From positions 1,364,001 through 1,428,000 of the forward strand of contig NZ_JAYEZN010000001.1 in the NCBI RefSeq assembly GCF_037031225.1: 64,000 bases of DNA, read 5' to 3'. The notes under the pieces were generated by a model, which saw only the letters and a program-made list of their open reading frames with translations, did not search any database and was not told where the DNA came from. This stretch comes from Halorientalis sp. LT38 (GTDB lineage: Archaea > Halobacteriota > Halobacteria > Halobacteriales > Haloarculaceae). Of the stretch, positions 23,592 to 40,615 are shown in pieces (within the stretch, counting starts at the first letter, position 1; each line of letters opens with the position of its first letter). The position numbers and the translations under genes were made by a program.

Positions 23592-24150
23592 TGACCCCGT
23601 GGAGCCGATTCTTCTCGGAATCGGCTGCAGCGGACCTCTTGCAGCAGGTTCGCTGGCGTGATGGTGTTGAGTGCCCCCGCTGCCGTTCTGCCTGACGGTC
23701 AGAAACGGCAGCTATCGGGTGTATCAGCGGTATTTGTGTGAGAATTGCGGTCGGACGTTCAACGACAAGACCGGCACGATCTTCGCTCACTCAAAGCTCA
23801 CGCTGAAAGAGTGGTATTTCACGATCTACGTGTTCTTACGGTTCAACACGAGCCTTCGCCAGATCGAGGCGGAACTCGATCTTTCGTACAAGACGGTGAG
23901 ACGGCGCGTCGAGCGCTTCGCCAGAGCGCTCGACGCGCCTGCAATACGGCTGTCCGGGCCGGTCGAAATCGACGAAGTGTACGTCTCAGCGGGCTTGAAA
24001 GGCCGCTGGCGCGACGGTGGCTCTCGCCCCACCGAGGCGTCTCGAACGACAAACTAACGCCGGATCTCAGAGCCTTTCAGCTCCGCCGCGAACTCTACAG
24101 AAAACCATGCGACGAAGCGCTCAAACATGCTCTCGACGCCGCTCTCTGAA
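23592..24150 (+). pseudogene. Internally deleted ISH4-like (IS1595 family) transposase
   Basis: Three frames together give a transposase with its middle missing. 23592-23694 encodes the N-terminus from MTPWSRFF through the first zinc-ribbon pair CPRC and then stops. After a frameshift near 23690-23705, 23706-24010 continues with YLCENCGRTFNDKTGTIF, FLRFNTSLRQIEAELDLSYKT and GPVEIDEVYVSAGLKGR. It then jumps, in another frame, to a C-terminal segment ARRWLSPHRGVSNDKL ending at 24149. Compared with remembered full-length ISH4-type proteins, roughly 350 bases of the catalytic core are deleted. It cannot transpose on its own. Confidence 0.75.
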
Positions 24151-24840
24151 AATCAACAACGTGCTTCACGAGAGCGTGGCGTAATTATGACTCGCCCTTA
24201 GCCAGTAGAAGAATTAACGTCAACTACTGATCCGAACTGGACTACGTCTCAGCAGGGATGAGATGGCCAAAGACGTGCTTAGGCGGGAATGTTGTGAGAG
24301 CCGATGCAGGATGTCCACTTAGAAACCACGTTAGAAAATTTACTCCTTCCCAAAAGTTGAGCAGAAGAGGGAAACTCACTGATAACCACCATTCTTCATA
24401 CACTTGGTCTGAGCTATCAATACGATTTGACTAATTTGGCTGTGGAGAAATAGGAATCACTCAGTGGTCCTATCCGTAGACTTATGGTATCCATAGGGTA
24501 GATGATGGACTTCTCCAATCTGTGGCTCGAATCGGGGAGAAGTATGAGGACGAGCTCCGTGACTGGTTCGGAAAATCGACATAGTCGAATCTGTATTGGT
24601 TCGGACAAGTAGAAAATACTGACTCAAAACGACGTCCACTATCTTGTCTGTATCCCAATTCGGCCATAGAACGACCGTATATGGCCTGTACCAGGGGATT
24701 AAGTTGCCCCCGACCGTATCAAACATTGCAGAACGCAACACGCTGTCGGGTGCGTCCAGTGACCGATTAAATCGCACGAGGAATTTCGGAATCGCAGGAC
24801 AGCGAAGCCGCTGTCGAATATGATTCAACCGGAAAGTGGA
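24151..24840. other. Non-coding AT-richer interval upstream of tRNA-Phe
   Basis: No gene or recognisable remnant is seen on either strand apart from the last bases of the insertion sequence (a CTCGCCC at 24191-24197 mirrors GGGCGAG at 23560-23566 and could be an end). Base composition is lower in GC than flanking genes. The position between an insertion sequence and a tRNA suggests integrated and decayed DNA. Confidence 0.5.
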
Positions 24841-24914
24841 TGCCGCCTCCCGGATTTGAACCGGGGACAGCCCGATCTTCAGTCGAGTGCTCTCCCAGTC
24901 TGAGCTAAGGCGGC
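24841..24914 (-). tRNA. tRNA-Phe (anticodon GAA)
   Basis: A 74-base cloverleaf on the minus strand: acceptor GCCGCCT/AGGCGGC with discriminator A, D arm GCTC/GAGC, anticodon loop CTGAAGA giving GAA, and T arm CCCGG-TTCAAAT-CCGGG. No intron and no encoded CCA. A CGAAA plus T-rich promoter-like stretch lies upstream at about 24949-24967 on this strand. Confidence 0.97.
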
Positions 24915-25098
24915 GCGCCGTCGTGCGCATCCCGACAGTTGCGGGTGGTAGAAAAAAGGATTTCGAAAGCCGGGGCCGCAACCGGTGCGCCCGATCGCAG
25001 CCGCCAGGACCCCCACAGCACGCGACAGCGGGACTGAGCGGCCGCAACGATCGGGTGGAGCGATAGAACTTTCACGCTGGCCGAGTGACAGGAGCGTA

Positions 25099-25533
25099 AT
25101 GAGGGATCGGAGCAGCTCCCGGGGGGGAGAGTCGGAACGATCGATCAGGAACGGGAAGCGCCACAGGCGATCCTACGAGGGCCGGGGCATCCGCCGCACG
25201 AAGGACGCCGACGCCGGTTCGGGCCCGGCGACCGGCTCATCAGGCCCGGACGTCGACGGCCGCGCCAAAGAGACCATGCGCGACGTCGGCTGGCACCTCC
25301 GGATGGCCGAAGAGCGCGAACGCGAGAACCACGGCCACCGGCTCCAGGAGGCCGGCCGCATCTCCCGGGATCTCTCGGCCGGGACGCCATCGAAAGCGGT
25401 GGCCCACGACCGGACACAGGAGGTCGACGACCTCCTCCAGCGCGCCGAGAGTACGGAGAATCCCGACGCCGACGGCCACATCGACGCCGCGCGACAGGCC
25501 GTGCGCGATCTCCTCTGGCGGCTGAAGCCCTGA
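25099..25533 (+). CDS. Hypothetical charged protein, 144 residues
   Basis: A soluble protein with a basic, Arg/Ser-rich first 50 residues (SERSIRNGKRHRRSYEGRG) and a helical acidic second half rich in Arg, Glu and Asp. No known motif is recognised. The start at 25099 is preceded by GGAG at 25091 and is preferred to an open-frame extension to 24985. It lies between tRNA-Phe and an acyl-CoA dehydrogenase gene. The basic N-terminus could bind nucleic acid, but this is speculation. Confidence 0.6.
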   Translation: MRDRSSSRGGESERSIRNGKRHRRSYEGRGIRRTKDADAGSGPATGSSGPDVDGRAKETMRDVGWHLRMAEERERENHGHRLQEAGRISRDLSAGTPSKAVAHDRTQEVDDLLQRAESTENPDADGHIDAARQAVRDLLWRLKP

Positions 25534-25654
25534 CCGGGCGGGCCGCGTAGCGGGGCCGGTGCGTGCTGGCGTCCGGTCGCGTCGGCCAGGCTCCCGGTCT
25601 TGCCTCGATGCCGGCACGACAAGACCTAACTCGATGGTGGCAGTGTACCGGCCA

Positions 25655-26794
25655 ATGGTTTCGCTCACGGACGAACAGCGGATGCTTGTCGAGACCGCCT
25701 CGGACCTCGCCGAAAACGAGTTCGCCGAGCGGGCCTACGAGTGGGACGGGGAGGCGCCATGGGAGAACCTGCAACTGCTCGCCGACCGGGGCTTTCTCGG
25801 GATCAACATCGACGAGGAGTACGGCGGCGCGGGACTCTCGGAGTTCGAGGCGCTGTTGCTCAACGATGCCGTCGGCCGTGTCTGTCCGGACACGGCGGCG
25901 TATCTCAACTCGCTGCACATGACCGCACCGCGGGCGATCGACATGTTCGGGACGCCCGCGGCCAAGGAACGGTACCTGCCGCCGCTGACGAAGGGCGAAG
26001 ACTTCGTCGCCATCTGTATCTCGGAGCCCGAGGCCGGGTCCGACCTGCACGCGATGAACACCACCGTCGAGGAACGAAACGGCGACCTCGTCGTCAACGG
26101 CGAGAAAACCTGGGTGTCGCGATTCAGGGAGTCCTCCGCCGGCGTCACCTGGGTGAAGTTCCCCGAGGGGTTGGGCACCGTGATCGTCGACTTCGACGAC
26201 CCCGGCGTCGAGGTCAGCAATCACTACACGAACATGGCCGGCCACGAGCAGACCCACTACTACATGGAAGACGTCGTCGTCCCCGAGGAGAACGTCCTCG
26301 CGCGCGGCGAGGACGCGTTCAAACGCCAGCTGAAGGCGCTCAACTGGGAGCGCCTCGGCGTGGCCTCGATCTCGAACACGTGGGCGCTGGCGGCGCTCGA
26401 CTACGCGCTCGAGTACGCACAGGACCGCGAGCAGTTCGGCCAGCCGATCGCCGAGTTCCAGGGCCTGGAGTGGAAACTCGCGGATCTCGTCACCCAGCTC
26501 GAGGCGTCACGGTCGCTCACCTACCGGGCGGCCGAGGACGCCGTTGCGAAGGGGCGAATCCCCGAACCGCTCCAGACCGGCGCGGCCAACCTCTTCTCGG
26601 GGCAGATGGCCGAGACGGTCATCAGCGAGTCCCTCCAGATCTGCGGCGCGAACGGCTACCAGCAGGGCCACCCGCTCGAGTACCTCTACCGACTCCAGCG
26701 CGGCTGGCGGTTCGCCGGCGGCACCGACGAGATCCAGAAGAACACGATCGCCCGCTGGCTCAAACGCGACGGGATCCCCACGATCCCGAACTGA
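25655..26794 (+). CDS. Acyl-CoA dehydrogenase
   Basis: A 379-residue flavoenzyme of the medium/short-chain acyl-CoA dehydrogenase family. It starts MVSLTDEQRMLVETA, has the FAD segments AICISEPEAGSDLHA (about residue 122) and EKTWVS (about 150), the ALDYALEYAQDREQFGQPI helix (about 250), and the C-terminal GGTDEIQKNTIARWL. The canonical catalytic Glu of short-chain members would sit near this end; here the C-terminal motif is GGTDEI, so the base could be elsewhere. The first ATG with a conserved N-terminus is 25655. It stands alone, with no linked electron-transfer or CoA gene. Confidence 0.9.
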   Translation: MVSLTDEQRMLVETASDLAENEFAERAYEWDGEAPWENLQLLADRGFLGINIDEEYGGAGLSEFEALLLNDAVGRVCPDTAAYLNSLHMTAPRAIDMFGTPAAKERYLPPLTKGEDFVAICISEPEAGSDLHAMNTTVEERNGDLVVNGEKTWVSRFRESSAGVTWVKFPEGLGTVIVDFDDPGVEVSNHYTNMAGHEQTHYYMEDVVVPEENVLARGEDAFKRQLKALNWERLGVASISNTWALAALDYALEYAQDREQFGQPIAEFQGLEWKLADLVTQLEASRSLTYRAAEDAVAKGRIPEPLQTGAANLFSGQMAETVISESLQICGANGYQQGHPLEYLYRLQRGWRFAGGTDEIQKNTIARWLKRDGIPTIPN

Positions 26795-27097
26795 TCGGCG
26801 AGGTCGAGGGTCGACGTTATTCAATCTCCCGCGCTCTCCGTTTCATCAATTTGCACACTTCGTTATTAATAATCGGTTTCCGAGGCTCGTTTACTTAGCT
26901 CGCGGCGGGCAAAGTGCTCCCCCCGTCCGTTCACTAAGACGTGGATCCGGTGTTCTAACTAAACGATCTGAGAAAAGCATTTACTAACACGGTGAGAAGC
27001 GTCGCTAATGAAAGACGGGTACCTCGTCGATTCACCCGCCCCGGGAAAGTACCTGTCCGCCGATTCCGGCGCTTCGCTTCCCGCGTCGTAGTTCTAC
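26795..27097. other. Intergenic region upstream of the Fic gene
   Basis: About 300 bases of lower GC with no supported gene. A 27-codon open frame (27008-27091) has a start but no recognisable content. GGTGTTCTAAC at 26950-26960 resembles GTGTTCTAACAC beyond the McrC stop at 29760, which may be coincidence. Confidence 0.4.
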
Positions 27098-28216
27098 ATG
27101 CCGGATAACCTGCCGCCGTCGATAGAGCTGTCACCGGAAGTCATCGAGGCGAACGGCCGGGCGATGCACTCGCTCGGTCGGCTCGACGGGTTCTGGAGCG
27201 AGATCGAAGACCCCGACGCGGCGTTCGGGCTGTTCGTCTACAAAGAGGCCGAGCAGTCGTCGCAGGTGGAGGGGACGCAGGTGACCGTCTCGGACATGTT
27301 GCGGAAGGGGACCGACTCGAAGGACGTCCGGGAAGCCCGGAACTACGCCGAGGCGTTACGGGCAGCGACGAGGGAGCTGCTCCGAGAGGGGCGACGCCGG
27401 CGGAACCTCTCCCTCGAACTCGTCACGTCGCTTCACGAGTCGCTCATGGAGTCCGGCCGAACGGACGACGAGGATCCCCGTCCGGGGGAGTTCCGCTCGC
27501 GGTACGTCTGGATCGAAGAGGAGAACCAGAGCGGCTACGGGACCAGCGTCCGGTTCGTTCCGCCGATGCCGAGCGCCGCGGAGTCGAAGATGGAGAACTT
27601 CGAGGAGTACATGCAGTCGGACGGGGAGTACCCCGACCTGGTCGATATCGGGCTCCTCCACTATCAGCTCGAGACCGTCCACCCGTTCGTCGACGGGAAC
27701 GGACGCGTGGGTCGGCTCCTCATCGTCTTGCTGCTGATCGCGTCGGACATCCTCGTCCACCCGCCCTTCTATCTCAGCTCCTACATCCGACGCAACCGCG
27801 ACGAGTACATCGACCTCCTGCTGGCCGTCAACGAGGAGGGCGAGTGGAACGCGTGGCTCGAGTTCTTCCTCGAGGGGATCAGAGAGCAGGCCGACGAAGC
27901 GTTCAGCCGCGCGAAGCTCCTCCTCCGACTGCGGACGGAGTACCGAGAGCGGTACAGCGACGCCGCACCCTCTGTCCGGGAGCTCGCCGACGCCGTCTTC
28001 GTCGAACCGATTTTCACCGTCTCTCGGGCGGCGGAGCTGATCGACATGTCGTACCCGGCGGCCAACAATGCGGTCGACCGTCTCGAGGCGGACGGGCTAC
28101 TCGAGGAACAGACCGGCAAAGATCGATACCGGGAGTTCCGGGCCACGGAAGTCCTCGACGTCCTGAATCGGGACGTCGAAGAGATCCCGTCGCCAGGTGA
28201 ACTCATGGCCGAGTGA
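27098..28216 (+). CDS. Fic family AMPylase/nucleotidyltransferase with C-terminal winged helix
   Basis: A 372-residue class II Fic protein. Fic enzymes move AMP or another nucleotide onto hydroxyl side chains of target proteins. The inhibitory motif SSQVEG (S-x3-E-G, about residues 53-58) precedes the catalytic HPFVDGNGRVGR (about 195-206), and a winged helix (SRAAELIDMSYPAANNAVDRLEADG, as separated motifs, about 310-340) closes the protein. All motif residues are intact, so it should be active but self-inhibited. It sits at the left end of a defence-like block. Confidence 0.9.
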   Translation: MPDNLPPSIELSPEVIEANGRAMHSLGRLDGFWSEIEDPDAAFGLFVYKEAEQSSQVEGTQVTVSDMLRKGTDSKDVREARNYAEALRAATRELLREGRRRRNLSLELVTSLHESLMESGRTDDEDPRPGEFRSRYVWIEEENQSGYGTSVRFVPPMPSAAESKMENFEEYMQSDGEYPDLVDIGLLHYQLETVHPFVDGNGRVGRLLIVLLLIASDILVHPPFYLSSYIRRNRDEYIDLLLAVNEEGEWNAWLEFFLEGIREQADEAFSRAKLLLRLRTEYRERYSDAAPSVRELADAVFVEPIFTVSRAAELIDMSYPAANNAVDRLEADGLLEEQTGKDRYREFRATEVLDVLNRDVEEIPSPGELMAE

Positions 28217-28371
28217 CACCGGATGGCAGCGCCGGAAAGGGGAATCGGGGAACCCCAGCAGCGGATGCCATTCGCCCGAGCGGTTTCGGGCTTTTTCGCC
28301 TGCGAAACAGTCCGTATCACCGATACCACCACCTGCCACACGTATTTCAACTATAACGCGCGAGACCCTCT

Positions 28372-29022
28372 ATGCCGGCGAGTCGACGAGATGGGTTACA
28401 GGAGCAGCTACTCGAGTGGTACGAAGCGAACGGACGTCACGACCTCCCGTGGCGCGAGGAGCGGCGGTCGGCGTTCGAGGTTTTGATCGCGGAGGTGCTC
28501 CTCCAGCGCACGACGGCGACTGCGGTCGCCGGCGCGTACGTTCCCGTCGTTTCCCGGTACCCGTCGCCCGAGGCGGTGGTCGCCGCGCCGTCCGGGGAGA
28601 TACGCGACCGCATCGCTCCGCTGGGCCTCTCGAAGCGCGCGGCCTATCTGGAACGGATATCGGGGCAGCTGCTCGATCGCCACTCTGGTCGGGTACCGCG
28701 AGACCGCTCGGATCTATCGCGGCTCCACGGGGTCGGGGAGTACACCGCGAGGTCGGTCTCAGTCCATTCTCACGGCGAACCCGTCGCCGCAGTGGATACG
28801 AACGTCGAACGATTACTGTCCCGGTTCTACGGCATCGATTCCGACGAGAGCGACGTCCAGGGCCTCGCAGACGACCTCACGCCGCCGGGACGCAGTAGCG
28901 ACTCCCTCCACGCCATGCTCGACTTCGCGGCCGCGGTGTGTACCGCTCGGTCGCCGAACTGTGCAGAGTGTCCGGTCGAGGCCAGGTGCGATAGTCCGAA
29001 GGGCGAAGACGGGCCGAACTGA
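28372..29022 (+). CDS. Mig-like HhH-GPD thymine/uracil-DNA mismatch glycosylase with FeS cluster
   Basis: A 216-residue base-excision repair glycosylase. The region AEVLLQRTTATAV, then GLSKRAAYLE and GGRVPR-like HSGRVPRDRSDL, parallels the methanogen G:T mismatch glycosylase Mig. The helix-hairpin-helix has Tyr in place of the lyase Lys (HGVGEYTARSV, about residue 124), and the catalytic Asp is in AVDTNVERL (about 142). A C-X6-C-X2-C-X5-C cluster motif ends it. It lacks the MutY C-terminal domain. Mig enzymes repair T from deaminated 5-methylcytosine, which fits the nearby methylation-related McrBC genes. A MutY paralogue is the alternative. Confidence 0.82.
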   Translation: MPASRRDGLQEQLLEWYEANGRHDLPWREERRSAFEVLIAEVLLQRTTATAVAGAYVPVVSRYPSPEAVVAAPSGEIRDRIAPLGLSKRAAYLERISGQLLDRHSGRVPRDRSDLSRLHGVGEYTARSVSVHSHGEPVAAVDTNVERLLSRFYGIDSDESDVQGLADDLTPPGRSSDSLHAMLDFAAAVCTARSPNCAECPVEARCDSPKGEDGPN

Positions 29023-29084
29023 ACGCTCAGGAGGGACGAGCGATTCGTGCCGTCGACGGTCACGGACAGACCCCCGTTCGTCGA

Positions 29085-29680
29085 TCAAGTGCCGGAGTAT
29101 TCGGCGAGGTGCTTCTCGAGTTCCTCACGTCGTCGCCTCGACTTCCGCTCTTCGGTACGCTGGTCGTAGTGCTTGTCGAGCACGGGCACCGACACGTCCA
29201 CCCGGTCGCTTAGGAGCTCCTTAGGCATCCCGGCGTCGAGTTGGTTCATTATGGCCCACTTCCGGAGCGGGTGGGTCGTGAACCCGGACGGACATTCCGG
29301 CGCGTTCCTGTTCTTCACGGCGTCGCAGTCCGTCGCGTCTCGGCCGTGCGGGCAGTCGGACGAGTACACGCACGGTCGGGTCATCTTGTAGAAGTCCCGC
29401 CGGATCGTCGCCGTCGAGACGCGGCCGGCGGTCGTCGTGAACAGCGGCTCGCGTCCGTACTAGTCGACGACGTCGTGGCGATTGTGGTCGACGTAGTCAA
29501 CCACGAAGTCCCGTAGCTCGGGGGAGATATTGACGATCCGCTCGCCATCGGAGCCGTTCTTGAGCGGCGTTCCGAGGTCCTCCGTCGCTTCGGGTCGGTG
29601 GCGGAGGTGGATTACCACATCATCCCGGTCGAGATCGGCGAGGTCGATCGCCCGGATCGCGCCCTCAATTTAGCACGACA
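29085..29680 (-). pseudogene. Tyrosine recombinase/integrase remnant
   Basis: The minus strand encodes the catalytic half of a haloarchaeal phage-type integrase: GAIRAIDLADLDRDDVVIH, then LFTTTAGRVSTATIRRDFY, a Cys-rich insert CVYSSDCPHGRD, HPLRKWAIM (where H-x-L-R is expected) and the C-terminal DKHYDQRTEE carrying the nucleophile Tyr. An in-frame TAG at 29460-29462 breaks it, and the N-terminal DNA-binding part is missing beyond about 29680. It is therefore inactive. It probably marks the element that brought this block next to tRNA-Val. Confidence 0.8.
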
Positions 29681-29753
29681 CCTGTCATTTATTATCAGGT
29701 GAAGAATTCGTCAAAGCACCCAGTTCCAATTTATGACGCTCGATTCCGGGGCT

Positions 29754-31109
29754 TTAGATCACGTGTTCTAACACGGCCGCAAGCTCCGATTCGAGCTCTG
29801 CCGCCTGTAAAATCGAAATCTCATTCGACCCCTGATCGCCTACCGAAGCGGTGTCCTCCTCCAAGTCCTGTATCACCAGCAGACCGTTCCATCCGCTCCC
29901 GAAGTAGTCCTCTTTGTCACGCTCGCCGAACACGAACTCGTCGTTGACACGGAGGAAGGCCAGGTACTCGGCCGTTTCTTTGATCCCCCTCCGGATGGTG
30001 TCGGTGCTGGTGCTGTTCTTCACCTCGACGATCAGATATTCGTGTTCCCCCTTTTCCTCATCGATCACCTCCATCACGATGACGTCCGGCCGGCCCGTGT
30101 GATTCTCGAACGACCGCTCCGAGAAGTACTCGTTCGCCACGCTTCGGGCGACGGTCTGGACCTTCTCCGTCCGAGAAAGGGCCCTCTCCGCCGCTTCGGG
30201 AACGTCGGAAACGAAGGAGAGATCGCGGTCTCGGGCGGAGTTGTCGTGATACAGGACGATTTCTTTCTCAGCCTCGAGCCTGGCGAGCTCTTGTCTATCC
30301 GATGCGATCGTCTTGAACCGGAGATCCCCCTCTCGGAGGTCCTCCAGAGTCGAGACGAACCGGAAGAGCACGAAGAGCTCGAAGAGTGCGTGGTCGTCGT
30401 CGGGAGTGATGGCGGTCTCGTCGAGCAGGTCCCGGAGGGCCTCTTCCTCCCCCTCGAACAGAGCGGCGCGAGTTCGTAGTAGCGAGGCGGCCTCTCGGTA
30501 CACCCGCTGCCGGGACTCCTCAGCGGTGGTGAGCATCCGCTCAGTTGGCTCGTAGACGTCAGGTTCCCTGATCCGTCTGACGTGGACGTTCCGCTCGACG
30601 ATCCGGTTCAGCTCGTCGATCAGGTCCTCGTTCCCTCGCCACGTCTCTCTCACCCACTCGTATTCGCCTCTGAGGTAGTCTTCGGCTTCGCGCAAGGTCC
30701 CGTGAATCACGGAGAGCAGCCGCTTCAGAACGACGTTCTCGGCGATGTCGTAGTCCTCGGACCGGTTGTCGCAGACGAAGAGTGACCCGTCGTCCGGGTT
30801 CCGAGAATACCGCTCCTTTATCGTCGAGTTCCAGTTGATGTGGCCGTCGATCGTCCCGCGGCGCGTCCGCGAGACCGTCTCGGTCTCCGTTCGGACGTTC
30901 CGGAGATGGGCGGGTAGCTCGCGGACGAACTCGATGACGTCCTCAGTCAAGATGAAGTGCAGGTCGAGGAGCAGCTCGTAGTCCTCGAAGCGCTCGTCCA
31001 ACTGGTCGGGTTTGATCGACCGAGCTATCTCGTCTTCCGGGAACGCCCCGTGCATGACGTAGGTGAGTACGTCCTGCGTCAACTGGTCCAGCAGTTCTTC
31101 TCTATTCAT
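29754..31109 (-). CDS. mcrC: McrC-like PD-(D/E)XK nuclease subunit of a type IV restriction system
   Basis: A 451-residue protein whose start overlaps the McrB stop by 8 bases. The N-terminal two thirds are helical and would contact McrB; the segment around ENVVLKRLL and FELFVLFRF resembles the McrC scaffold. The nuclease core is near residues 338-362: RPDVIVME supplies the Asp, and LIVEVKNS supplies the E-V-K. McrC proteins cut DNA after McrB translocates. It is intact and its codon use is slightly less GC-rich than core genes, consistent with transfer. Confidence 0.85.
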   Translation of the reverse strand: MNREELLDQLTQDVLTYVMHGAFPEDEIARSIKPDQLDERFEDYELLLDLHFILTEDVIEFVRELPAHLRNVRTETETVSRTRRGTIDGHINWNSTIKERYSRNPDDGSLFVCDNRSEDYDIAENVVLKRLLSVIHGTLREAEDYLRGEYEWVRETWRGNEDLIDELNRIVERNVHVRRIREPDVYEPTERMLTTAEESRQRVYREAASLLRTRAALFEGEEEALRDLLDETAITPDDDHALFELFVLFRFVSTLEDLREGDLRFKTIASDRQELARLEAEKEIVLYHDNSARDRDLSFVSDVPEAAERALSRTEKVQTVARSVANEYFSERSFENHTGRPDVIVMEVIDEEKGEHEYLIVEVKNSTSTDTIRRGIKETAEYLAFLRVNDEFVFGERDKEDYFGSGWNGLLVIQDLEEDTASVGDQGSNEISILQAAELESELAAVLEHVI

Positions 31110-34100
31110 CGTCGGCGATGTTCACTTGGAGCATCTCGGCCGCCGCATCACCGAGCCCGTCTGCATCAATCTGCGGGACGTTCGAGATCTGGCGGACGAT
31201 CTGCTCCCGTTTCGGAACGCCCTCTAACTGGGGGAAGACGTAGCTGATGACGGCCCTCGTGAGGCGGTCCTCGAGATCGATCGCCTTGTTCTCGTCCACA
31301 TACTCGACGATGTCCTTTACGATAGCCGGACCGATGGCTCGGTCCTCGACGGCGCCGTTCATCTCTCTCCAGACGCGACCGATGGCAAGTAGTTCTGCTT
31401 GGTCGCGCTCACTCACCGGCATATCCCACGCTGCTGCGTAATCGTGCATTAGGTCGCCCATCTCTTCGTCGTCGTCCGGTATCGAAGGAGCACCAACGCG
31501 GATGAACGCAAAGCGGCGCATGAACGCGTAGCTCATCTCGTAGAGCGACGTCTTGTCGTAAGTGTTCATGGTCGCGAAGATCCGCCAGGATTCGGGGACG
31601 ACGTACTGATGGGGCGCCGGTCGTCGATCGGTCTCCGCCGCTGAGAGGAGTTCGATCTCTTCGCCGTCTCTGGTGTACGGTAGCTGAACCGATTGGCCGG
31701 AGAGGAGGGTGAACAGCTGTCCGAATGCTTTGTCGATATCCGCGCGATTGAGCTCGTCGATGACCAGCGGTTCGTTCACTTGCCGATCCGTCCGGCGCTC
31801 TTTGAGTCGGTTCAGGACAACTCCCGGCGTAAACGAGAGATCGTCGCTTCCCTCATCAGTCGACTCGGGCATGTAACCACCAACTGTGTCGAAAGTAGAC
31901 CAGTCCGCAGTGGCTGTGGTGAGTTGGAAGTCCGAATAGAGGTATGGGTACTCCGACGCGAGATGCGAGCAAACGCGTCGAGCTATCTCTGTCTTCCCTG
32001 TCCCAGGTGGCCCAGTGAGGATAATGTGCTTACCCGACCGTAGAGCCGCCTCGATCTGCTGGACGATCTCGCGCTTCTGATCGCCGGGGAAATACAGACC
32101 GTCGAGCGGATCCATAGGCACAGAGCCCTCGAACTCCACGTGTGCGTTGATCGTTCCAGTCGGCTCCAACCGGTCTGTGAGTGCTTCGAGTAACGCCCTG
32201 GGGCGCTCATAGTCCTGAGAGTCGTCCTTCCCTCTGAAAACGCCGTGAGCCCCCTGAGCTGGGAAACTAATTCCGTTCGTCTCTTGGCAGATGGATTGGA
32301 CCCGCTCGAACTCGAGGAGATTGGCAGTGAGGGCCGCCATCTGGTCCTCGAGCTCATCTTGGGACATCTCGTCGACTCTTTTCGAGGTGTTCAGGCTATC
32401 GAGGTCGCTGGTGAGATACAGCTCATCAAATCCGGCCAAATAGGGGAACGGATCCTCTTGAGTCTCGTCGGTCCACCAGCGGCCGTTTTTCTCCGATTTC
32501 TCTCCGATGATACCGACGCCGAAGATTCCGTGCGGCTGGTCACTGATCGATTCGGTCGCGGCCTCTGAACGGGTGTGGAGAAATGCAATAGTTCCCGATT
32601 GGATCGATTCCCAGATTTGCTCCGTGTCCGATTCGAATGAGACGGTACCGTATTGGACCGCTGTCAGCCAGTACTCCGGTGGCGCGGTGAATTTCCGGAT
32701 AGGTAGATCTGAGTCTTCGATTGATTCTATCAGGGGATGGTCTGGTTCCTCTGGTGTCAGTTGTTTCCGATTCTGGGTAGGTACAGTGTATGAATCTTCG
32801 AGAATACTGTTGAGCCGTGGTTGGCTGAGAGAGCCGTTCGGTACGTCTAACTCGTCCTGGATCACTCGGAAATAGCCCAGGAAAAGCGTCTTCGCGGGGG
32901 AGAAACGACCGAGTGAGCCGACGCCGAGATCGTCCGCTTTCGCTTCGAATTCCGTTTCGACGGACTCGTAAAACGTCCGAAGTTGGTCGAATTTTGCGGC
33001 CGTACCGGCGGTAACCTCGTCGGACGGTTTGTACCCGGTGAGCGCCGTCGACCAGTCGGCGATGACCGCCTCGCTGAGGCGGTCGTAAAACCAGGAGAGG
33101 CCCTCAGGAGCCCGGTCGAGCCGATTTCGAATATCTTCTATCGCGCCGTCGATCGAGTCGTACTCGTCTCTGGCTTCGATACCTGGACTTGCGAGGTCCC
33201 GGATCGGATACCCCTTCTCTTGCAACTCCGATTCTAACTCCTGCGATTCAGCGGTTATCACGGCCAGAAGTTCCGGAGGACACCGCGTGAAGTATCCGCC
33301 TTGAACGAGGGCGAGGTTCTTATCGAAGAAGATGTTGCTGTACTGGTCCCGAACGTCTCGTAGTCGGGCCTCGTGCGACCGGTTATTGAGGACTTGCTCG
33401 TAGACGTCTATCGGTTCTCCGAGCTCTCGGTAGTCGGTCAGCCAGCGGCGGTATCCCGCTTGTTCGTCAGTCCAGCCGAACTCAGGGAGCCCCTCGAAGT
33501 CTGTTTCGAGCTCGGACTCGATCGTAGAGACGCCCACGATCCGTCCTTTGTCCTGGAGCAGGTGAAGGACGATATCTCCGGGGTCGGCCTCACGCATTTG
33601 CGCGTATCGGTCGTGTCCCTGCTTGTCTTGTGTCGGGGAATAGATCGCGTTGCCGAGTTGCAACTCACCTTCTTTCTTGTATGTCCGCCCCTCGATTTCG
33701 GTCTTCTCTATCCAGACTCGCGGCTCGGAATCGGAGTTGCTCGATTGACCACTCGTCTCACTCCCGGAGCTCATTTCATCGAGTTTCGCTTGGATACGAT
33801 CTTCGTCGACATCATCCAATACCAGTGAGCCCGCTGCGTACTCGAAGAGGGCATCCCAGTCGTCGGGGAATCGGGCAAGTTCACCTTCATAGGTGCCATC
33901 GCCGTTGATGGTGATCTTTTGATCGCCCTTCGAGTACGTCTCCTGGAGAATGATTTCGCCGGGGATGAACAGGAAGTGGTCTCGAGACTCATCGAATCCG
34001 CCCTTGGATTCGATATCCAACTGGATACTGCACACCCGCTGGTCGGGGTCTTCTTCGAGCTTCTCTTGCTCGCGGTCGAATCGTTGCCACATCTGCTCTT

Positions 34101-34287
34101 CGCCGCTTTCAGTCCGAAAACTACGGCTCGAGGCGACAGATATTCGAACTTTTCCCAACACCGGGTCCTCGTCGCCTAACTGAAAATGGAAGATTCGTCC
34201 GTTGACGTCGGTATCTACCGCGATACCGCGGTCATTTGCTCGTCGTCTGAGAATCGTCAACCAGTCCTCAATAGCGTCCCGAGGCAT
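31102..34287 (-). CDS. mcrB: McrB-like AAA+ GTPase with two PUA/EVE-like reader domains
   Basis: A 1061-residue motor subunit. The C-terminal AAA+ module has Walker A GPPGTGKTE (about residue 758), Walker B LVIDELNRAD (about 842) and the McrB guanine-specificity motif MNTYDK (NTxD, about 908), followed by an Arg-rich FMRRFAFIRV. Upstream are two segments that look like PUA/EVE-type modified-base readers: LGNAIYSPTQDKQ to DPGDIVLHLLQDKGRIVGVS (about 212-270) and PEYWLTAVQYGTVSF to GIIGEKSEKNGRWW (about 535-605). Residues 1-150 form another domain I cannot name. The reader assignment is by pattern only. Confidence 0.82.
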   Translation of the reverse strand: MPRDAIEDWLTILRRRANDRGIAVDTDVNGRIFHFQLGDEDPVLGKVRISVASSRSFRTESGEEQMWQRFDREQEKLEEDPDQRVCSIQLDIESKGGFDESRDHFLFIPGEIILQETYSKGDQKITINGDGTYEGELARFPDDWDALFEYAAGSLVLDDVDEDRIQAKLDEMSSGSETSGQSSNSDSEPRVWIEKTEIEGRTYKKEGELQLGNAIYSPTQDKQGHDRYAQMREADPGDIVLHLLQDKGRIVGVSTIESELETDFEGLPEFGWTDEQAGYRRWLTDYRELGEPIDVYEQVLNNRSHEARLRDVRDQYSNIFFDKNLALVQGGYFTRCPPELLAVITAESQELESELQEKGYPIRDLASPGIEARDEYDSIDGAIEDIRNRLDRAPEGLSWFYDRLSEAVIADWSTALTGYKPSDEVTAGTAAKFDQLRTFYESVETEFEAKADDLGVGSLGRFSPAKTLFLGYFRVIQDELDVPNGSLSQPRLNSILEDSYTVPTQNRKQLTPEEPDHPLIESIEDSDLPIRKFTAPPEYWLTAVQYGTVSFESDTEQIWESIQSGTIAFLHTRSEAATESISDQPHGIFGVGIIGEKSEKNGRWWTDETQEDPFPYLAGFDELYLTSDLDSLNTSKRVDEMSQDELEDQMAALTANLLEFERVQSICQETNGISFPAQGAHGVFRGKDDSQDYERPRALLEALTDRLEPTGTINAHVEFEGSVPMDPLDGLYFPGDQKREIVQQIEAALRSGKHIILTGPPGTGKTEIARRVCSHLASEYPYLYSDFQLTTATADWSTFDTVGGYMPESTDEGSDDLSFTPGVVLNRLKERRTDRQVNEPLVIDELNRADIDKAFGQLFTLLSGQSVQLPYTRDGEEIELLSAAETDRRPAPHQYVVPESWRIFATMNTYDKTSLYEMSYAFMRRFAFIRVGAPSIPDDDEEMGDLMHDYAAAWDMPVSERDQAELLAIGRVWREMNGAVEDRAIGPAIVKDIVEYVDENKAIDLEDRLTRAVISYVFPQLEGVPKREQIVRQISNVPQIDADGLGDAAAEMLQVNIADDE

Positions 34288-34335
34288 CGTAATTCCTTGA
34301 CACTGGTCTGAGAGGACGCTTAGTGTTTACGCCAC

Positions 34336-34344
34336 TATAGTAAA
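34336..34344 (-). promoter_or_regulatory. TATA-like promoter of the mcrBC operon
   Basis: On the minus strand TTTACTATA lies about 50 bases before the mcrB ATG in the short AT-rich gap next to tRNA-Val. It is the only promoter-like element in the gap. Confidence 0.35.
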
Positions 34345-34366
34345 TAGAAATCGTACGCACCGCGAG

Positions 34367-34440
34367 TGGGTTCGGGCGGATTCGAACCACCGACCTCGGC
34401 CTTGTAAAGGCCGCGTCATAACCGACTAGACCACGAACCC
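34367..34440 (-). tRNA. tRNA-Val (anticodon UAC)
   Basis: A 74-base cloverleaf: acceptor GGGTTCG/CGAACCC with discriminator A, anticodon stem CGGCC/GGCCG around TTTACAA giving UAC, T arm GGTGG-TTCGAAT-CCGCC. No intron. Its 3' end faces the mcrBC and integrase-remnant block, the usual orientation for an integrative element target, although no duplicate of the 3' end was seen by eye further left. Confidence 0.96.
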
Positions 34441-34526
34441 GTATTCGAGGGAAACCCACGCCGAAGAATAACCCTTACTGTCTCGGTCGACAGCCTTACC
34501 TCGCCGAACCGCCACCCCTCGACAAC

Positions 34527-35030
34527 ATGGCGTCGAAGGCCGTCTACACGATCACGGCTGGCCTGCTCCTCATCCTCGCGGTCGGCGTGGCCCTCCAGTT
34601 CGGCGTCCTCGACTCCACCCTGGAGCCGGGCGACTACGAGAACACGACGGTCACCGTCGCCGAGGCCAACGGCACGACACTCGCGACCGTCGACGTCCGT
34701 ATCGCCGACACCGACCGGAAGCGCTACGTCGGCCTCAGCCAGACCGAGAGTCTCGATCCCGGCGAGGGGATGCTGTTCGTCCACGACGGAGTCGACACGC
34801 ACGGCTACGTGATGCGGGACATGGCCTTCCCGCTCGACATCATCTTCGTCGCCCCTGACGGCACGATCACGAGGATTCACCACGCCGACCCGGAACCGGA
34901 CGCGAGCGGGGAGGATCTCACCCGCTACGAGGGCCGCGGGAAGTACGTCCTGGAGGTCCCGCGTGGGTACGCGAACGAAACGGGGATAGAGGAAGGTGAC
35001 GCAGTCGAGATTCCCGACGGCGTGGCCTGA
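34527..35030 (+). CDS. DUF192 family exported/membrane-anchored protein
   Basis: A 167-residue DUF192 protein with one N-terminal transmembrane segment (about residues 7-27, no lipobox) and the DUF192 core: KRYVGLSQTESLDPGEGMLFV, RDMAFPLDIIFV and KYVLEVPRGYANETGIEEGD. The cysteine-free core faces outside. The biochemical role of the family is unknown. The next gene is a lipoprotein version of the same domain, so this is a tandem duplication with different anchoring. Confidence 0.88.
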   Translation: MASKAVYTITAGLLLILAVGVALQFGVLDSTLEPGDYENTTVTVAEANGTTLATVDVRIADTDRKRYVGLSQTESLDPGEGMLFVHDGVDTHGYVMRDMAFPLDIIFVAPDGTITRIHHADPEPDASGEDLTRYEGRGKYVLEVPRGYANETGIEEGDAVEIPDGVA

Positions 35031-35084
35031 TGGGAGCGCCACTCCGACCGCACGATTTATTCTGGCCGGCGTGGATTTCCCGCC

Positions 35085-35732
35085 GTGTCACGGAACGTTC
35101 TCGTCGCGCTGGCGGTGGTGGGGTCGCTCCTCCTGGCCGGCTGCGCCGGTGACCCGGTCGGGACGTCGCCGACGACCACGCCCGCGGACGCGGGGAGCAC
35201 GTCGGGGGAACAGGAAACGACCACGGCTCCGACGCCGGACGGTGAAACGAGGACCACCGACGCTGGCGGTCCCACGCAGGGGACGGAAAACGAGTCGCGG
35301 CCGCAGGTGACGCTGCGGGACGCGAACGGCACCCGACTGGGAATTGTGACCGTGATGGTCTCTGACACCGGGAGCGAGCGCTACACTGGTCTCAGTGAAA
35401 CGGAAGACCTCAACGAGAGCGAGGGGATGCTGTTCGTCTACGACTCGCCCCAGCGGGACGCGGCGTACGTCATGCGGGACATGGCCTTCCCGCTGGACAT
35501 CGTCTTCGTCGCCCCCAACGGCACGATCACGACGATCCACCACGCCGAGACCGAACCCGGCGAGAGCGGCGGCGAACTCACCCGCTATCCGGGCGACGGG
35601 CAGTACGTGCTGGAGGTGAACCGCGGCTACGCCAACCGGACCGGCCTCGGGGTCGGGGACACGGTCGAGATCCCGGCCGCGATCGCCACCTCCGACGCGA
35701 CGCCCACGCCGACGGCCGGCGGCGGGGAGTAG
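35085..35732 (+). CDS. DUF192 family lipoprotein
   Basis: A 215-residue paralogue of the preceding gene. It begins with GTG at 35085 because that start gives a lipobox (SLLLAGC, about residue 20) after a hydrophobic stretch. A Thr/Asp/Gly-rich linker (about 22-75) leads to the DUF192 core with GLSETEDLNESEGMLFV and MRDMAFPLDIVFV. Over the core the two proteins are nearly identical, and the DNA is also closely similar, indicating a recent duplication or gene conversion. Confidence 0.85.
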   Translation: MSRNVLVALAVVGSLLLAGCAGDPVGTSPTTTPADAGSTSGEQETTTAPTPDGETRTTDAGGPTQGTENESRPQVTLRDANGTRLGIVTVMVSDTGSERYTGLSETEDLNESEGMLFVYDSPQRDAAYVMRDMAFPLDIVFVAPNGTITTIHHAETEPGESGGELTRYPGDGQYVLEVNRGYANRTGLGVGDTVEIPAAIATSDATPTPTAGGGE

Positions 35733-35801
35733 CAGGGAGCCGGACCGCCGTCACAGCCCGCAGGCGACGGTCTTTTGCGCTGGCGGGCCGTGGAACCGCT
35801 G

Positions 35802-37730
35802 ATGGAATTCGGCGCCGCCGAGACCGAGGACGATCCGTTCGAGGAGGCCCGCGAGCGCGCCGAGAACCCCATGCGCCGGCTGTTCGCCGAGTACGGCCGC
35901 GAGAACCGATCGTGGTTCCTCGTCGGCCTCTTCGGCAGCGTCGTCGCCCGCGTGCTCGACCTCCTCCCGCCGGTTCTTTTGGGACTGGCAGTCGACGCCA
36001 TCCTCCGCAACGACAAGTCCTTCACCTTGCTTTTGGTCCCCGACGCATGGATCCCGGCGACCCAGGAAGGCAAGCTCTTCCTGACTGTCGGCCTGATCGC
36101 CGGTGCGTTCTTCATTGGCGCGGCCTTCCACTGGGTGCGCAACTGGGGGTGGAACGGCTTCGCCCAGCAGATCCAGCACGACATCCGCACCGACACGTAC
36201 GACAAGATGCAGCGCCTGGACATGGACTTCTTCGCCGACAAGCAGACCGGCGAGATGATGTCGATCCTCTCGAACGACGTCAACCGGTTAGAGAACTTCC
36301 TCAACGACGGGATGAACTCCGCGTTCCGCCTGGGCGTCATGGTGATCGGGATCGCGGCCATCCTCTTCTGGATCAACTGGCAACTCGCCGTCATCGCGCT
36401 GGTCCCCGTTCCGCTCATCGCCTACTTCACCTACCGGTTCATCCGCACGATCCAGCCGAAATACGCCGAAGTCCGCTCCTCGGTCGGGCAGGTCAACTCC
36501 CGGCTGGAGAACAACCTCGGAGGCATCCAGGTCATCAAGAGCGCCAACACCGAGGGCTACGAATCGGACCGCGTCGAGGACGTCTCGCGGGACTACTTCG
36601 ACGCCAACTGGGACGCCATCGATACCCGGATCAAGTTCTTCCCCGGCCTGCGGATCATCTCCGGGGTCGGCTTCGTCCTCACCTTCGCCGTCGGCGGGTT
36701 CTGGGTGCTCAACGGCCCGCCCGGTCCCTTCACCGATCGGCTGTACGTCGGCGAGTTCGTCACCTTCATCCTGCTCAACCAGCGGTTCATCTGGCCGATG
36801 GCCCAGTTCGGGCAAATCATCAACATGTACCAGCGCGCCCGCGCTTCCTCCGAGCGCATCTTCGGCCTGATGGACACGCCGGCCCGCATCGCGGCGGATC
36901 CGGACGCCGAGGAACTGGTCCTCGACGACGGCCGCGTCGAGTACGAAGACGTGACCTTCGCTTATGACTCGGAGGACGAGCCGGTCCTCGAAGACGTCTC
37001 CTTCGAGGTGGACGGCGGCGAGACGTTCGCCCTCGTCGGCCCGACCGGCGCGGGGAAATCGACAGTATTGAAACTCCTGATGCGGATGTACGACGTCGAC
37101 GAGGGGGCCATCCGCGTCGACGGGCAGGACGTCCGGGACGTGACGATTCCGAGTCTCCGCGAGGCCATCGGCTACGTCAGCCAGGAGACGTTCCTGTTCT
37201 ACGGCACGGTCGCGGAGAACATCCAGTACGGCTCCTTCGACGCCGACCGCGAAGCCGTGATCGAGGCGGCCAAACGAGCCGAGGCCCACGAGTTCATCCG
37301 GAATCTCCCCGAGGGCTACGACACCGAGGTCGGCGAGCGCGGGGTCAAACTCTCGGGCGGTCAGCGCCAGCGCATCGCCATCGCCCGGGCGATCCTCAAG
37401 GACCCCGAGATCCTCGTGCTGGACGAAGCGACCAGCGACGTGGACACCGAGACGGAGATGCTCATCCAGCGCTCGCTCGATCGCCTGGCCGAGGACCGCA
37501 CGACCTTCGCCATCGCCCACCGCCTGTCGACCATCAAGGACGCAGACCGGATCGTCGTCGTCGAGGACGGACGGATCGTCGAACGCGGCACCCACGGGGA
37601 TTTGCTGGCCGAAAACGGCCTGTACGCCAACCTCTGGGCGGTGCAGGCCGGCGAGATCGAGGAGCTCCCCGAGGAGTTCGTCGAGCGGGCGACCGAGCGC
37701 CGGGCGCAGACCGAGACGGGCGACGATTGA
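35802..37730 (+). CDS. ABC exporter, fused permease-ATPase
   Basis: A 642-residue half-transporter that would act as a homodimer. It has six transmembrane spans in the first 350 residues with the intracellular coupling helix region QRLDMDFFADKQTGEMMSIL, then an ATPase with Walker A GPTGAGKST (about residue 413), signature LSGGQRQR (about 516), Walker B ILVLDEATSDVD (about 537) and H-loop AHRL (about 571). The ATG at 35802 is preferred to a TTG at 35775. The exported substrate (lipid, peptide or drug) cannot be told from the sequence. Confidence 0.92.
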   Translation: MEFGAAETEDDPFEEARERAENPMRRLFAEYGRENRSWFLVGLFGSVVARVLDLLPPVLLGLAVDAILRNDKSFTLLLVPDAWIPATQEGKLFLTVGLIAGAFFIGAAFHWVRNWGWNGFAQQIQHDIRTDTYDKMQRLDMDFFADKQTGEMMSILSNDVNRLENFLNDGMNSAFRLGVMVIGIAAILFWINWQLAVIALVPVPLIAYFTYRFIRTIQPKYAEVRSSVGQVNSRLENNLGGIQVIKSANTEGYESDRVEDVSRDYFDANWDAIDTRIKFFPGLRIISGVGFVLTFAVGGFWVLNGPPGPFTDRLYVGEFVTFILLNQRFIWPMAQFGQIINMYQRARASSERIFGLMDTPARIAADPDAEELVLDDGRVEYEDVTFAYDSEDEPVLEDVSFEVDGGETFALVGPTGAGKSTVLKLLMRMYDVDEGAIRVDGQDVRDVTIPSLREAIGYVSQETFLFYGTVAENIQYGSFDADREAVIEAAKRAEAHEFIRNLPEGYDTEVGERGVKLSGGQRQRIAIARAILKDPEILVLDEATSDVDTETEMLIQRSLDRLAEDRTTFAIAHRLSTIKDADRIVVVEDGRIVERGTHGDLLAENGLYANLWAVQAGEIEELPEEFVERATERRAQTETGDD

Positions 37731-37811
37731 TCCGTGCGGACCGTTCCGATTCGGAACGGTCCAAACTGCGGTCGGCGTCCGGAGGACGACGACTGAGAAG
37801 GAGCGACCGTT

Positions 37812-38162
37812 TCAGACCCGCCCGACGAACGTCGCGTCGGCGGAGGTGCGACCCTTGTTGAACGAGAGGACTTTGGCGCGGATCACCTCGCCCTCGGAGA
37901 GGGAGTCGGGGACGTCCTCGGTGAACAGGACGAACCCCTCGACCTTGCCGACGGCGACGCGCTCGCCGGAGTGGTGGTCTGTGAACTCGCTGACCCCGAA
38001 CTCGTAGGTCTCGCCGAGTTCCACCGGCGGTTCGCGTTCCTGGGCGGCCTCGTGGGCGCGTTTCGACGCACTCGCGCTCGACGAGCGTCGCCGGAGGAGG
38101 GCGATCAACAGCAGGAAGACGACGACGGCCGCGGCGCCGGCCCCGACGAAGAGGTACTCCAT
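37812..38162 (-). CDS. Membrane-anchored TRAM domain protein
   Basis: A 116-residue protein with a single N-terminal membrane segment (about residues 3-24), a short basic linker, and a C-terminal TRAM domain (about 50-116: LGETYEFGVSEF, VGKVEGFVLFTED, GEVIRAKVLSFNKGRTSADATFVGR). TRAM is a small RNA-binding beta-barrel found in tRNA modification enzymes and archaeal stand-alone RNA chaperones. Anchoring to the membrane would localise RNA binding there; the partner is unknown. Confidence 0.85.
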   Translation of the reverse strand: MEYLFVGAGAAAVVVFLLLIALLRRRSSSASASKRAHEAAQEREPPVELGETYEFGVSEFTDHHSGERVAVGKVEGFVLFTEDVPDSLSEGEVIRAKVLSFNKGRTSADATFVGRV

Positions 38163-38268
38163 ACCCCCTCACAGCGAGCGCCGGGGGTTATAGCTTGGTG
38201 GCTCGGTACGGGGTGGCCCCGTCCGTGCTGAGGCAGGCTTACGTGCCCGCCGTCCGAGAGGTCCGGTA

Positions 38269-39018
38269 ATGCGACTCGCCGAGGCCACCTGGACCGACGC
38301 GGACGCCGCCGACGCCGAGTTGGCGGTGCTCCCCGTCGGCAGCACCGAACAGCACGGCCCCCACGCGCCGCTGGGAACCGACGTCTTGACCGCCGAAGCC
38401 ATCGCCGAGGCCGGCGCGGAATCCTACGAGGACGAGACCGGCGACCCGGTGATCGTCGCCCCGCCGATCCCCGTCGGCGTCGCCGAGGAGCACCGGCAGT
38501 TCACCGGGACGCTCTGGGTCGGCGAGGACGCCTTCCGGGACTACGTCCGCGAGACCGTCGAGAGCCTCCAGTCCCACGGTTGGGAGCGAGTCGTGATCGT
38601 CAACGGCCACGGCGGCAACGTCCACGCGCTCCGGGAGGTCTGTGCCCGGCTCACCCGCCAGACCGACGGGTTCGCCGTATCCTTCACCTGGTTCGACGCC
38701 GTCGATCCGGCGGACGTGGAGATGGGCCACGGCGGGCCGGTGGAGACGAGCGCGCTCCGACATCTCCATCCGGAACTGGTCGCGGAGGATCGGCTCGACG
38801 ACGCTGCGGCCGGTGCCGCCGACGGCTGGGGCGAGTGGCAAAGCGGGACCAATCTGGCCTACGACAGCGCGGAGTTCAGCGAGAACGGGGCGGTGGGCGA
38901 CCCCCGCGAGGGGGACGCCGACCTGGGCGAGCGACTGGTCGACGAAGCCGTCGACGCGCTGACGGCGCTACTCGATCGGGTGGCGGACCGGGACACCGGA
39001 CTGCCCGAGCACCGCTAG
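38269..39018 (+). CDS. Creatininase family amidohydrolase
   Basis: A 249-residue metal amidohydrolase. Metal ligands are all visible: Glu and His in GSTEQHGPHAPLGTD (about residues 24-38), His in NGHGGN (about 110) and Glu in HGGPVETSAL (about 160). The family includes creatininase and ArfB, the formamide hydrolase of archaeal riboflavin and F420 biosynthesis. Because creatinine use is unlikely and cofGH are in this genome region, ArfB-like deformylation is a good candidate but not established. Confidence 0.88.
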   Translation: MRLAEATWTDADAADAELAVLPVGSTEQHGPHAPLGTDVLTAEAIAEAGAESYEDETGDPVIVAPPIPVGVAEEHRQFTGTLWVGEDAFRDYVRETVESLQSHGWERVVIVNGHGGNVHALREVCARLTRQTDGFAVSFTWFDAVDPADVEMGHGGPVETSALRHLHPELVAEDRLDDAAAGAADGWGEWQSGTNLAYDSAEFSENGAVGDPREGDADLGERLVDEAVDALTALLDRVADRDTGLPEHR

Positions 39019-39500
39019 TCCGCGGCTTCGGCCTCTTCGGCCTCGGCGTCCGCGTCGGCTTCGGCGTCGGCGTCTGCCTCCGCGTCAGCCTCCTCGTCTC
39101 CTTCTGCTGCGGCGTGGGCGTCGTCGAGCGCGCCGCGGAGTTCGGGGACGGTGCTGGCGAGGTCGCTCACCTGCTCGTGGGCGTCCTCGATGTCCTCGAA
39201 GACGTCGTCGAGGGCCTCGATCTGGGCGGCGAGGTCGTCGGCGTCCTCGAAGGCGCCGGCGCGTTCGCCCATCGTGTACCACTTCTTGGCGTCGGTCAGG
39301 TGGTCCGCGGCGTCGCCGGGATCGAGCGCCGAGCGGAGGCCGTTGAGCACGCCCAGGGTGTTGTCGGCGTCGACGTCCCAGATGGCGTCGCCCTCGGGCA
39401 GGGACTCGCGGGCCTTCGCGAGCGATTCCTCGACGTCCTCGCGCATCTCGGAGGCCGCCTCGTCGAACAGGTCGTCGTCGTCCAGAGTCGTCTGACCCAT
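39015..39500 (-). CDS. DUF5790-like haloarchaeal protein
   Basis: A 161-residue very acidic protein. It begins MGQTTLDDDDLFDEA, has a helical centre with LGVLNGLRSAL and DAKKWYTMGERAGAFEDADDLA, and ends in a tail of alternating Ala, Asp and Glu (about residues 136-161) that is encoded by a short repetitive GCN/GAN tract. The conserved centre matches a family widespread in haloarchaea, from memory DUF5790, with unknown function. It overlaps the creatininase 3' end by 4 bases in convergent orientation. Confidence 0.75.
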   Translation of the reverse strand: MGQTTLDDDDLFDEAASEMREDVEESLAKARESLPEGDAIWDVDADNTLGVLNGLRSALDPGDAADHLTDAKKWYTMGERAGAFEDADDLAAQIEALDDVFEDIEDAHEQVSDLASTVPELRGALDDAHAAAEGDEEADAEADADAEADADAEAEEAEAAD

Positions 39501-39616
39501 ACCCACCGATTCGACGCGTGTGGGTATAAAAACCCGCCCGAAAGTGAAAGTGAAACCGGCCGACGGCGAGGGGGCCGGATTCGGGGGCGGAGATATACCG
39601 GCCCGGCCGCCGCCGG

Positions 39617-40615
39617 TCACTCCCGGATCGCCGCGCGCCGCTCCGGGATCAGGTCGAGGTCGGCGTCGGTGTCGCCCAGGACCAGAAGCGCGTAGTACCG
39701 CAGGAACGTCTGGAGCGGGACCTGGACGAGCGCTGCCACCGCGATCACGAGGAGGACGAAGACGACCCCGAGGATGCCGAGGACTGCGATCACTGGGATC
39801 GTGAAGGCCGTCCCGCCGACGAAGAAGGCGACCAGACCCACGACGAGGAAGGGGATCGCGATGAGGACGGCGGCGATCCCGGTCACCGTCGCGGCGAGGA
39901 CGCCGATCACGATCGAGAGGAAGAACTTCACGAGCACGTACGCGGCGTACTGCCCGAGGTTGCCCCGCAGCGTCGCGGCGAAGCGTCGCCACGCGCCGAG
40001 GATCGAGCCCTCGCCCAGCACTGCGGTCGGAACGACGAAGTCCACGGTGAACCCGTCGAGCAGGGCGACGAGGGGGAGCAAGATCACGAGCAAGGGAAGG
40101 ACCAGGAAGAGGGCGGAGAGGACCTGCTCGTCGGTCCACTCCGTCACGGTGCCGGACGGGCCGGCGACGAAGACCACGCCGAGCACGATCCCGACCGCGA
40201 CGGCGAACAGCGCCAGGCGGAACAGGAACAGTCGCAGGCCGGCCCCCAGGTACCGGCGCGTGTACCGTCGGACGTGAACCGCTTCTTCACGGAGGGACTC
40301 GACGAGGACGAACTCCATGATCGAGGCGAGCAGGCCGAAGAGGACGGCGAGCAGCGCGATCGCCGCGACGACCACGGCGATCACGAGGACGAAATCGTCC
40401 GGGAGCGGGTCGGGGAACTCCGAGGGGGGCGAGGTCTGGACCCCGCCGTTCGAGGCGCCCGAGCCGGCGTTGAACGGGGCGTTCATACCGAAGCCGCTGG
40501 CGACGAAGAAGGCGACGACGGCGAGTCTGAGCCACCGGGAGCGATCGACCGGGAACAGGAACTCGCGTGCCGCCTCGACAGCGTCACCGACGTCGTCGAC
40601 CGCGTGGAGGGACAT
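39617..40615 (-). CDS. Polytopic membrane protein of unknown function (DUF7544-like)
   Basis: A 332-residue membrane protein with a soluble N-terminus (MSLHAVDDVGDAVEAAREFL) followed by about six hydrophobic spans, with a Gly/Ser/Asn-rich loop after the first one. The layout matches a widespread haloarchaeal family of unknown function. The Met at 40615 is favoured because the family usually begins with this amphipathic segment. Neighbours give no functional hint. Confidence 0.72.
   Translation of the reverse strand: MSLHAVDDVGDAVEAAREFLFPVDRSRWLRLAVVAFFVASGFGMNAPFNAGSGASNGGVQTSPPSEFPDPLPDDFVLVIAVVVAAIALLAVLFGLLASIMEFVLVESLREEAVHVRRYTRRYLGAGLRLFLFRLALFAVAVGIVLGVVFVAGPSGTVTEWTDEQVLSALFLVLPLLVILLPLVALLDGFTVDFVVPTAVLGEGSILGAWRRFAATLRGNLGQYAAYVLVKFFLSIVIGVLAATVTGIAAVLIAIPFLVVGLVAFFVGGTAFTIPVIAVLGILGVVFVLLVIAVAALVQVPLQTFLRYYALLVLGDTDADLDLIPERRAAIRE

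Follow-up and report, generated by a model that had tools for sequence, protein, structure and literature searches.

The 64,000-nucleotide window analysed here, from Halorientalis sp. LT38, carries an mcrB-like gene on its minus strand (31102-34287), an ATG-initiated frame without interruption that encodes 1061 aa. Directly downstream, overlapping it by 8 nt, lies an mcrC-like gene (29754-31109, minus strand; 451 aa). The C-terminal third of the McrB protein forms an AAA+ motor (residues 722-1061; 31105-32124, minus strand) with a Walker A (GPPGTGKT, 759), a Walker B (VIDELN, 842) and a signature motif (MNTYDK, 907) of the NxxD type (NTYD, 908-911). The Pfam model for McrB-type AAA_5 domains matches residues 754-926 (E 1.8e-16), and E. 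coli McrB was the top sequence match in the PDB (E 1.3e-13). Whole-protein scans with Pfam, PADLOC and NCBIfam recognised nothing beyond the motor. The McrC-like protein is too divergent for the Pfam McrC/DUF2357 models, none of which matched significantly, and was therefore assigned by position, motif and co-conservation: its GRPDVIV...EVK sequence is a PD-(D/E)xK motif (residues 340-366; 30012-30092, minus strand) whose R340, P341, D342, E362 and K364 are invariant in an alignment of 19 relatives, and a McrC-like ORF directly follows the motor gene in 92 of the 109 relatives in which this could be tested.

A first-pass annotation of the sequence had proposed two PUA/EVE-type readers of modified bases upstream of the GTPase. 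AlphaFold models, inspected for a missing PUA-like barrel, returned the barrel for both segments, and together with matches to EVE/YTH folds and conserved pocket residues this supports the proposal at the level of the fold. The intervals originally given, residues 212-270 and 535-605, proved to be the cores of real domains with boundaries drawn too narrowly, the full domains spanning residues 188-361 and about 515-700. Since neither segment of the window protein gave a significant Pfam match (across 12-28 relatives of each reader, the best was EVE with E 0.21), the case is built on the predicted folds, on intermediates that link the sequences and on the conservation of the pocket.

Reader 1 (residues 188-361; 33205-33726, minus strand) is an EVE domain of the VcaM4I type, for which the AlphaFold model of residues 1-515 is mostly confident. 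Its best structural match is the EVE domain of VcaM4I itself (6yex; VIA Z 15.9 over 153 residues, rmsd 2.8, 20% identity), four Z units ahead of the others, which comprise further EVE proteins (Z 11-12, including the EVE prototype 2eve at 11.2) and the S. marinus McrB N-domain (Z 10.0); Foldseek agrees on the fold (E 3.2e-7). The sequence evidence is independent of this model. A direct profile search with reader 1 did not find VcaM4I, yet two intermediates reach it: a segment of an Agrobacterium McrB, whose gene adjoins an annotated mcrC, matches reader 1 at 33% identity (E 4e-14) and VcaM4I at E 4e-7, and EVEx, another haloarchaeal subfamily, matches both reader 1 (hhalign probability 98.9%) and VcaM4I (E 3e-9). 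Judged through these intermediates, reader 1 is homologous to the VcaM4I EVE domain. In VcaM4I, Y130 and W82, together with P24, hold the flipped 5mC or 5hmC between them, and T11 forms a bond with it (PMC7897488). The residues corresponding to T11, P24, W82 and Y130 in reader 1 are T196, P218, W272 and Y332, conserved in 15/15, 13/15, 15/15 and 15/15 sequences, respectively. The intercalating (wedge) Gln128 has a conserved potential equivalent in Q329, but this lies one residue out of register, as the Q329-G-G-Y332 stretch is one residue longer. By analogy with VcaM4I, reader 1 would flip the base, with 5mC/5hmC as its likely ligand.

Reader 2 (residues about 515-700; 32188-32745, minus strand) is, by its predicted fold, an EVE/YTH-type domain. 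The AlphaFold model of residues 505-735 (mean pLDDT 84.3) shows the order of strands and helices found in EVE domains, and fold matches to PH1033 (Z 13.7), MJECL36 (Z 13.2) and the YTH domain of YTHDC1 with 6mA DNA (Z 11.8) span nearly the whole domain. Sequence matches to characterised readers are weak (TgMcrB YTH domain, 6p0f, E 0.32; PH1033, E 0.54). F551 on a strand (23 of 28 sequences) and W604 and W605 in a loop (24 and 25 of 28) sit where the aromatics of an EVE/YTH cage are expected, as placed by topology rather than by residue-level superposition; W540 is conserved in all 28. The same domain occurs without a motor in stand-alone haloarchaeal proteins of ~370 aa (L052:3707-4777, L053:2968-4116, L054:3880-5010), whose C-termini carry the pattern SD(I/L)...EAK...QLxEY, PD-(D/E)xK-like as read from the sequence and without a Pfam match. 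These proteins are possibly undescribed single-chain modification-dependent nucleases. An origin of the two readers by recent duplication of one was considered and rejected, as profile-profile comparison of reader 1 with reader 2 found no significant relation (5.3% and 0.1% probability).

Between the readers, the first-pass annotation had placed a helical segment, and residues 362-503 (32779-33204, minus strand) are indeed helical in the AlphaFold model (pLDDT mostly 80-93); this linker domain is present in 34 of 118 relatives. The N-terminus, described there as an unknown domain at residues 1-150, is here delimited as module 1 (residues 1-160; 33808-34287, minus strand). With pLDDT mostly below 60 and only one usable relative in the alignment, no fold is claimed for it, and a PDB profile search with the module 1 family returned nothing convincing. 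It is, however, not merely unknown, because homologs in other haloarchaea are fused to HNH nucleases (L048:4706-5671, HNH_2 E 2.5e-10; L049:3998-4903, HNH E 4.8e-8), the latter also matching the PADLOC type IV HNH model (1.8e-19). In two further loci, L050 (by eye) and L051, module 1 precedes EVEx. These contexts indicate module 1 to be probably a third, DNA-recognising module, and its HNH fusions a possible new family of sensor-HNH restriction enzymes. Each of the three N-terminal modules is thus joined elsewhere directly to a nuclease, for which reason all three look like targeting modules.

The window is part of a haloarchaeal chromosome, and the nearest relatives found were all haloarchaeal. 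Searches of viral_contigs retrieved no homolog of reader 1 and only two distant motors, and phage records yielded motors only. Compared with its ortholog in Halobacteria archaeon HArc-gm2, the window McrB shows 84.9% amino acid identity and a dN/dS of 0.105, with purifying selection on every module (module 1, 0.075; reader 1, 0.065; reader 2, 0.124). From its reading frame and substitution pattern, the 1061-aa protein is intact and purifyingly selected. The two genomes share the mcrBC pair (29752-34336) at 83.6% nucleotide identity, and positions 24001-40000 of the window gave no match outside the pair to the 15 kb around the HArc-gm2 mcrBC, a pattern that suggests joint mobility of the two genes.

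Just beyond mcrC, a 99-aa ORF (29085-29384, minus strand) resembles, by eye and without a Pfam match, the C-terminus of a haloarchaeal tyrosine integrase. A tRNA-Val gene lies at 34366-34440, and the G+C content dips over mcrBC. This combination suggests a decayed integrated element; no attachment-site duplication of the tRNA-Val was found. Near mcrBC, a Fic-domain protein (27098-28216, plus strand; PADLOC SoFic, E 3.4e-99) is a candidate second defence gene. Between it and the integrase-like remnant, the gene at 28372-29022 (plus strand) encodes an HhH-GPD/EndoIII-like protein matching the PADLOC model 'Type II nicking endonuclease' (E 3.5e-31), which may be a repair glycosylase of a restriction-modification system. 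On the other side of mcrBC, two adjacent, similar genes (34527-35030 and 35085-35732, plus strand) have the look of DUF192-type secreted proteins or lipoproteins and, by eye, appear to be a tandem duplication.

To place the window protein among its relatives, 118 McrB-like chains, mainly from haloarchaeal genomes, were gathered by similarity to it, and their domains were assigned by means of iterated profiles. In 43 of the 118 chains there were at least two reader-type domains, with a maximum of four and roughly 20 different combinations, and in 34 at least two PUA-type readers, counts that describe a sample drawn by similarity to the window McrB and not frequencies for McrB at large. One label, YTHx, was assigned by eye, and its profile finds no PUA-type structure; without it, the numbers are 37 and 28. 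Clustering at 60% identity left 75 clusters, 33 with at least two reader-type domains and 25 with at least two of the PUA type. Pfam confirms EVE, MrcB_N and DpnI_C members among the chains, and one chain (L128:1451-5305, minus strand) stacks four reader-type domains (MrcB_N, YTHx, EVEx, EVE) before its motor. A single reader per McrB, which the first-pass annotation took to be usual, is what the characterised proteins show. In many haloarchaeal McrBs, however, the number is two to four, and the window McrB is therefore one of a haloarchaeal multi-reader class rather than an oddity.

Mapped onto a motor-domain tree, the module next to the motor changes 16 times (64 in shuffles) and the distal reader set 38 times (64 in shuffles). 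Reader 2 stands directly ahead of the motor in all 43 chains that hold it and changes only 4 times (35 in shuffles), while MrcB_N requires 10 changes for 13 holders (shuffles: mean 12.5, minimum 10), an almost random placement. On this tree, the motor-adjacent reader follows the phylogeny of the motor and the outer readers have been repeatedly swapped. Chains with a single reader on the same motor are common, and in 11 chains of the EVE2-AAA architecture reader 2 is the sole recognised one.

We propose that the locus encodes a type IV McrBC system in which one McrB chain stacks module 1, an EVE and an EVE/YTH reader before the GTPase; its role is most likely the restriction of modified virus or plasmid DNA, with the stacked readers broadening the modifications recognised. 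This explanation as a whole, in which the readers would act as alternatives, each sufficient alone, is the one we favour and hold to be reasonably probable. In E. coli and T. gammatolerans, McrB is known to be a GTP-driven hexamer that works with a PD-(D/E)xK McrC (PMC7680126). By extension, the window McrB would form hexamers; a modified base on invading DNA, flipped into the aromatic pocket of any one reader, would suffice to load the complex, and GTP-driven translocation would activate the McrC nuclease. Stacking would then widen the range of modifications or contexts restricted. The first-pass annotation had suggested either recognition of two modified bases or two-site binding; the history of the modules mildly favours independent reading over an obligate pair, since distal sets change 38 times and MrcB_N is placed almost at random. 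As to self DNA, a search of the host genome with Pfam PF00145 found no C5-cytosine methyltransferase (the same search was positive in 10 of 14 control genomes), so that a reader of 5mC or 5hmC would spare it. The host does encode one N4/N6-type and two N6-type methyltransferases, owing to which an unspecific 6mA reader might hit the host's own DNA.

This last point bears on an alternative in which both readers must engage, on two modified bases or at two sites of one molecule, and partly modified self DNA is spared: with these host enzymes, a lone 6mA-type reader might strike self, and the chain does combine two different pocket types. E. coli McrBC, moreover, needs two modified sites. Yet if the pair were obligate, one would not expect the motor tree to show modules exchanged largely independently of one another, nor single-reader chains to be common on the same motor, and we judge this requirement unlikely. 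Alternatively, reader 2 could be a structural adaptor that links the outer modules to the hexamer, leaving base recognition to reader 1 and perhaps module 1. Its fixed place before the motor, its few changes on the tree and a sequence more diverse than that of reader 1 all speak for this; the stable tie to the motor is a point against our proposal in that it would also fit a structural role. Against it stand the conserved aromatics F551, W604 and W605, the strictly conserved W540, the motorless proteins in which this domain is fused to a PD-(D/E)xK-like nuclease, and the EVE2-AAA chains that have no other recognised reader. A purely structural reader 2 thus seems improbable to us. Eukaryotic YTH folds, which reader 2 resembles, read m6A in RNA, and RNA targeting has been predicted for the CoCoNuT branch of McrBC relatives by its authors (PMC11090510); a modified-RNA target is nevertheless very unlikely here, as the motor has the NxxD signature and not the NxD of CoCoNuTs, McrC keeps its PD-(D/E)xK residues and reader 1 resembles a DNA reader. 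That both barrels are prediction artefacts or degenerate, non-functional remnants is scarcely credible despite the missing Pfam matches, given fold matches well above background, independent sequence intermediates that reach VcaM4I, low dN/dS in both readers and conserved pocket residues.

Beyond alternative reading by a single protein, we put forward more tentatively a combinatorial array, in which a proximal EVE/YTH reader inherited with the motor is combined with exchangeable outer readers (EVE, MrcB_N, wH, module 1), several modifications being served by one machine, and in which module 1 represents a new family of modified-DNA sensors shared with HNH endonucleases. Restriction systems have to keep pace with viruses whose DNA modifications change, and a motor that bears several readers and swaps the outer ones among its relatives would offer a simple way of doing so. 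Domain limits and pocket residues are now defined for two readers, and module 1 is a candidate for an unexplored sensor family.

Among EVE defence architectures, EVE-McrB ranks as the commonest according to Bell et al. 2020 (PMC7641849), who note 'additional domains often present', and Bell et al. 2024 (PMC11090510) refer to small modular specificity domains. Tandem readers in McrB are nowhere described in the open papers that were searched; an earlier account may exist elsewhere. The EVE-McrB and YTH-McrB systems of T. gammatolerans and S. marinus (PMC7641849) share with the window a McrB GTPase that has a PUA-type reader at its N-terminus and an McrC beside it, but the characterised ones have one reader, whereas the window McrB has two of the PUA type as well as module 1 and the helical domain. 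VcaM4I, an EVE-HNH modification-dependent endonuclease, has the same kind of EVE domain as reader 1 and the same pocket residues; it differs in being a single-chain HNH enzyme without a motor, and its Gln128 lacks an exact counterpart. CoCoNuTs (Bell et al. 2024, PMC11090510) likewise belong to the McrB relatives and bear several additional domains, yet they combine the NxD signature with coiled coils and hardly occur in archaea, in contrast to the NxxD motor and stacked readers seen here. Finally, McrBC of E. coli K-12 resembles the window system in its GTPase motor with NxxD and its PD-(D/E)xK McrC partner, while its McrB carries one methylcytosine reader, DUF3578 (MrcB_N), which is absent from the window McrB and present in some of its haloarchaeal relatives.
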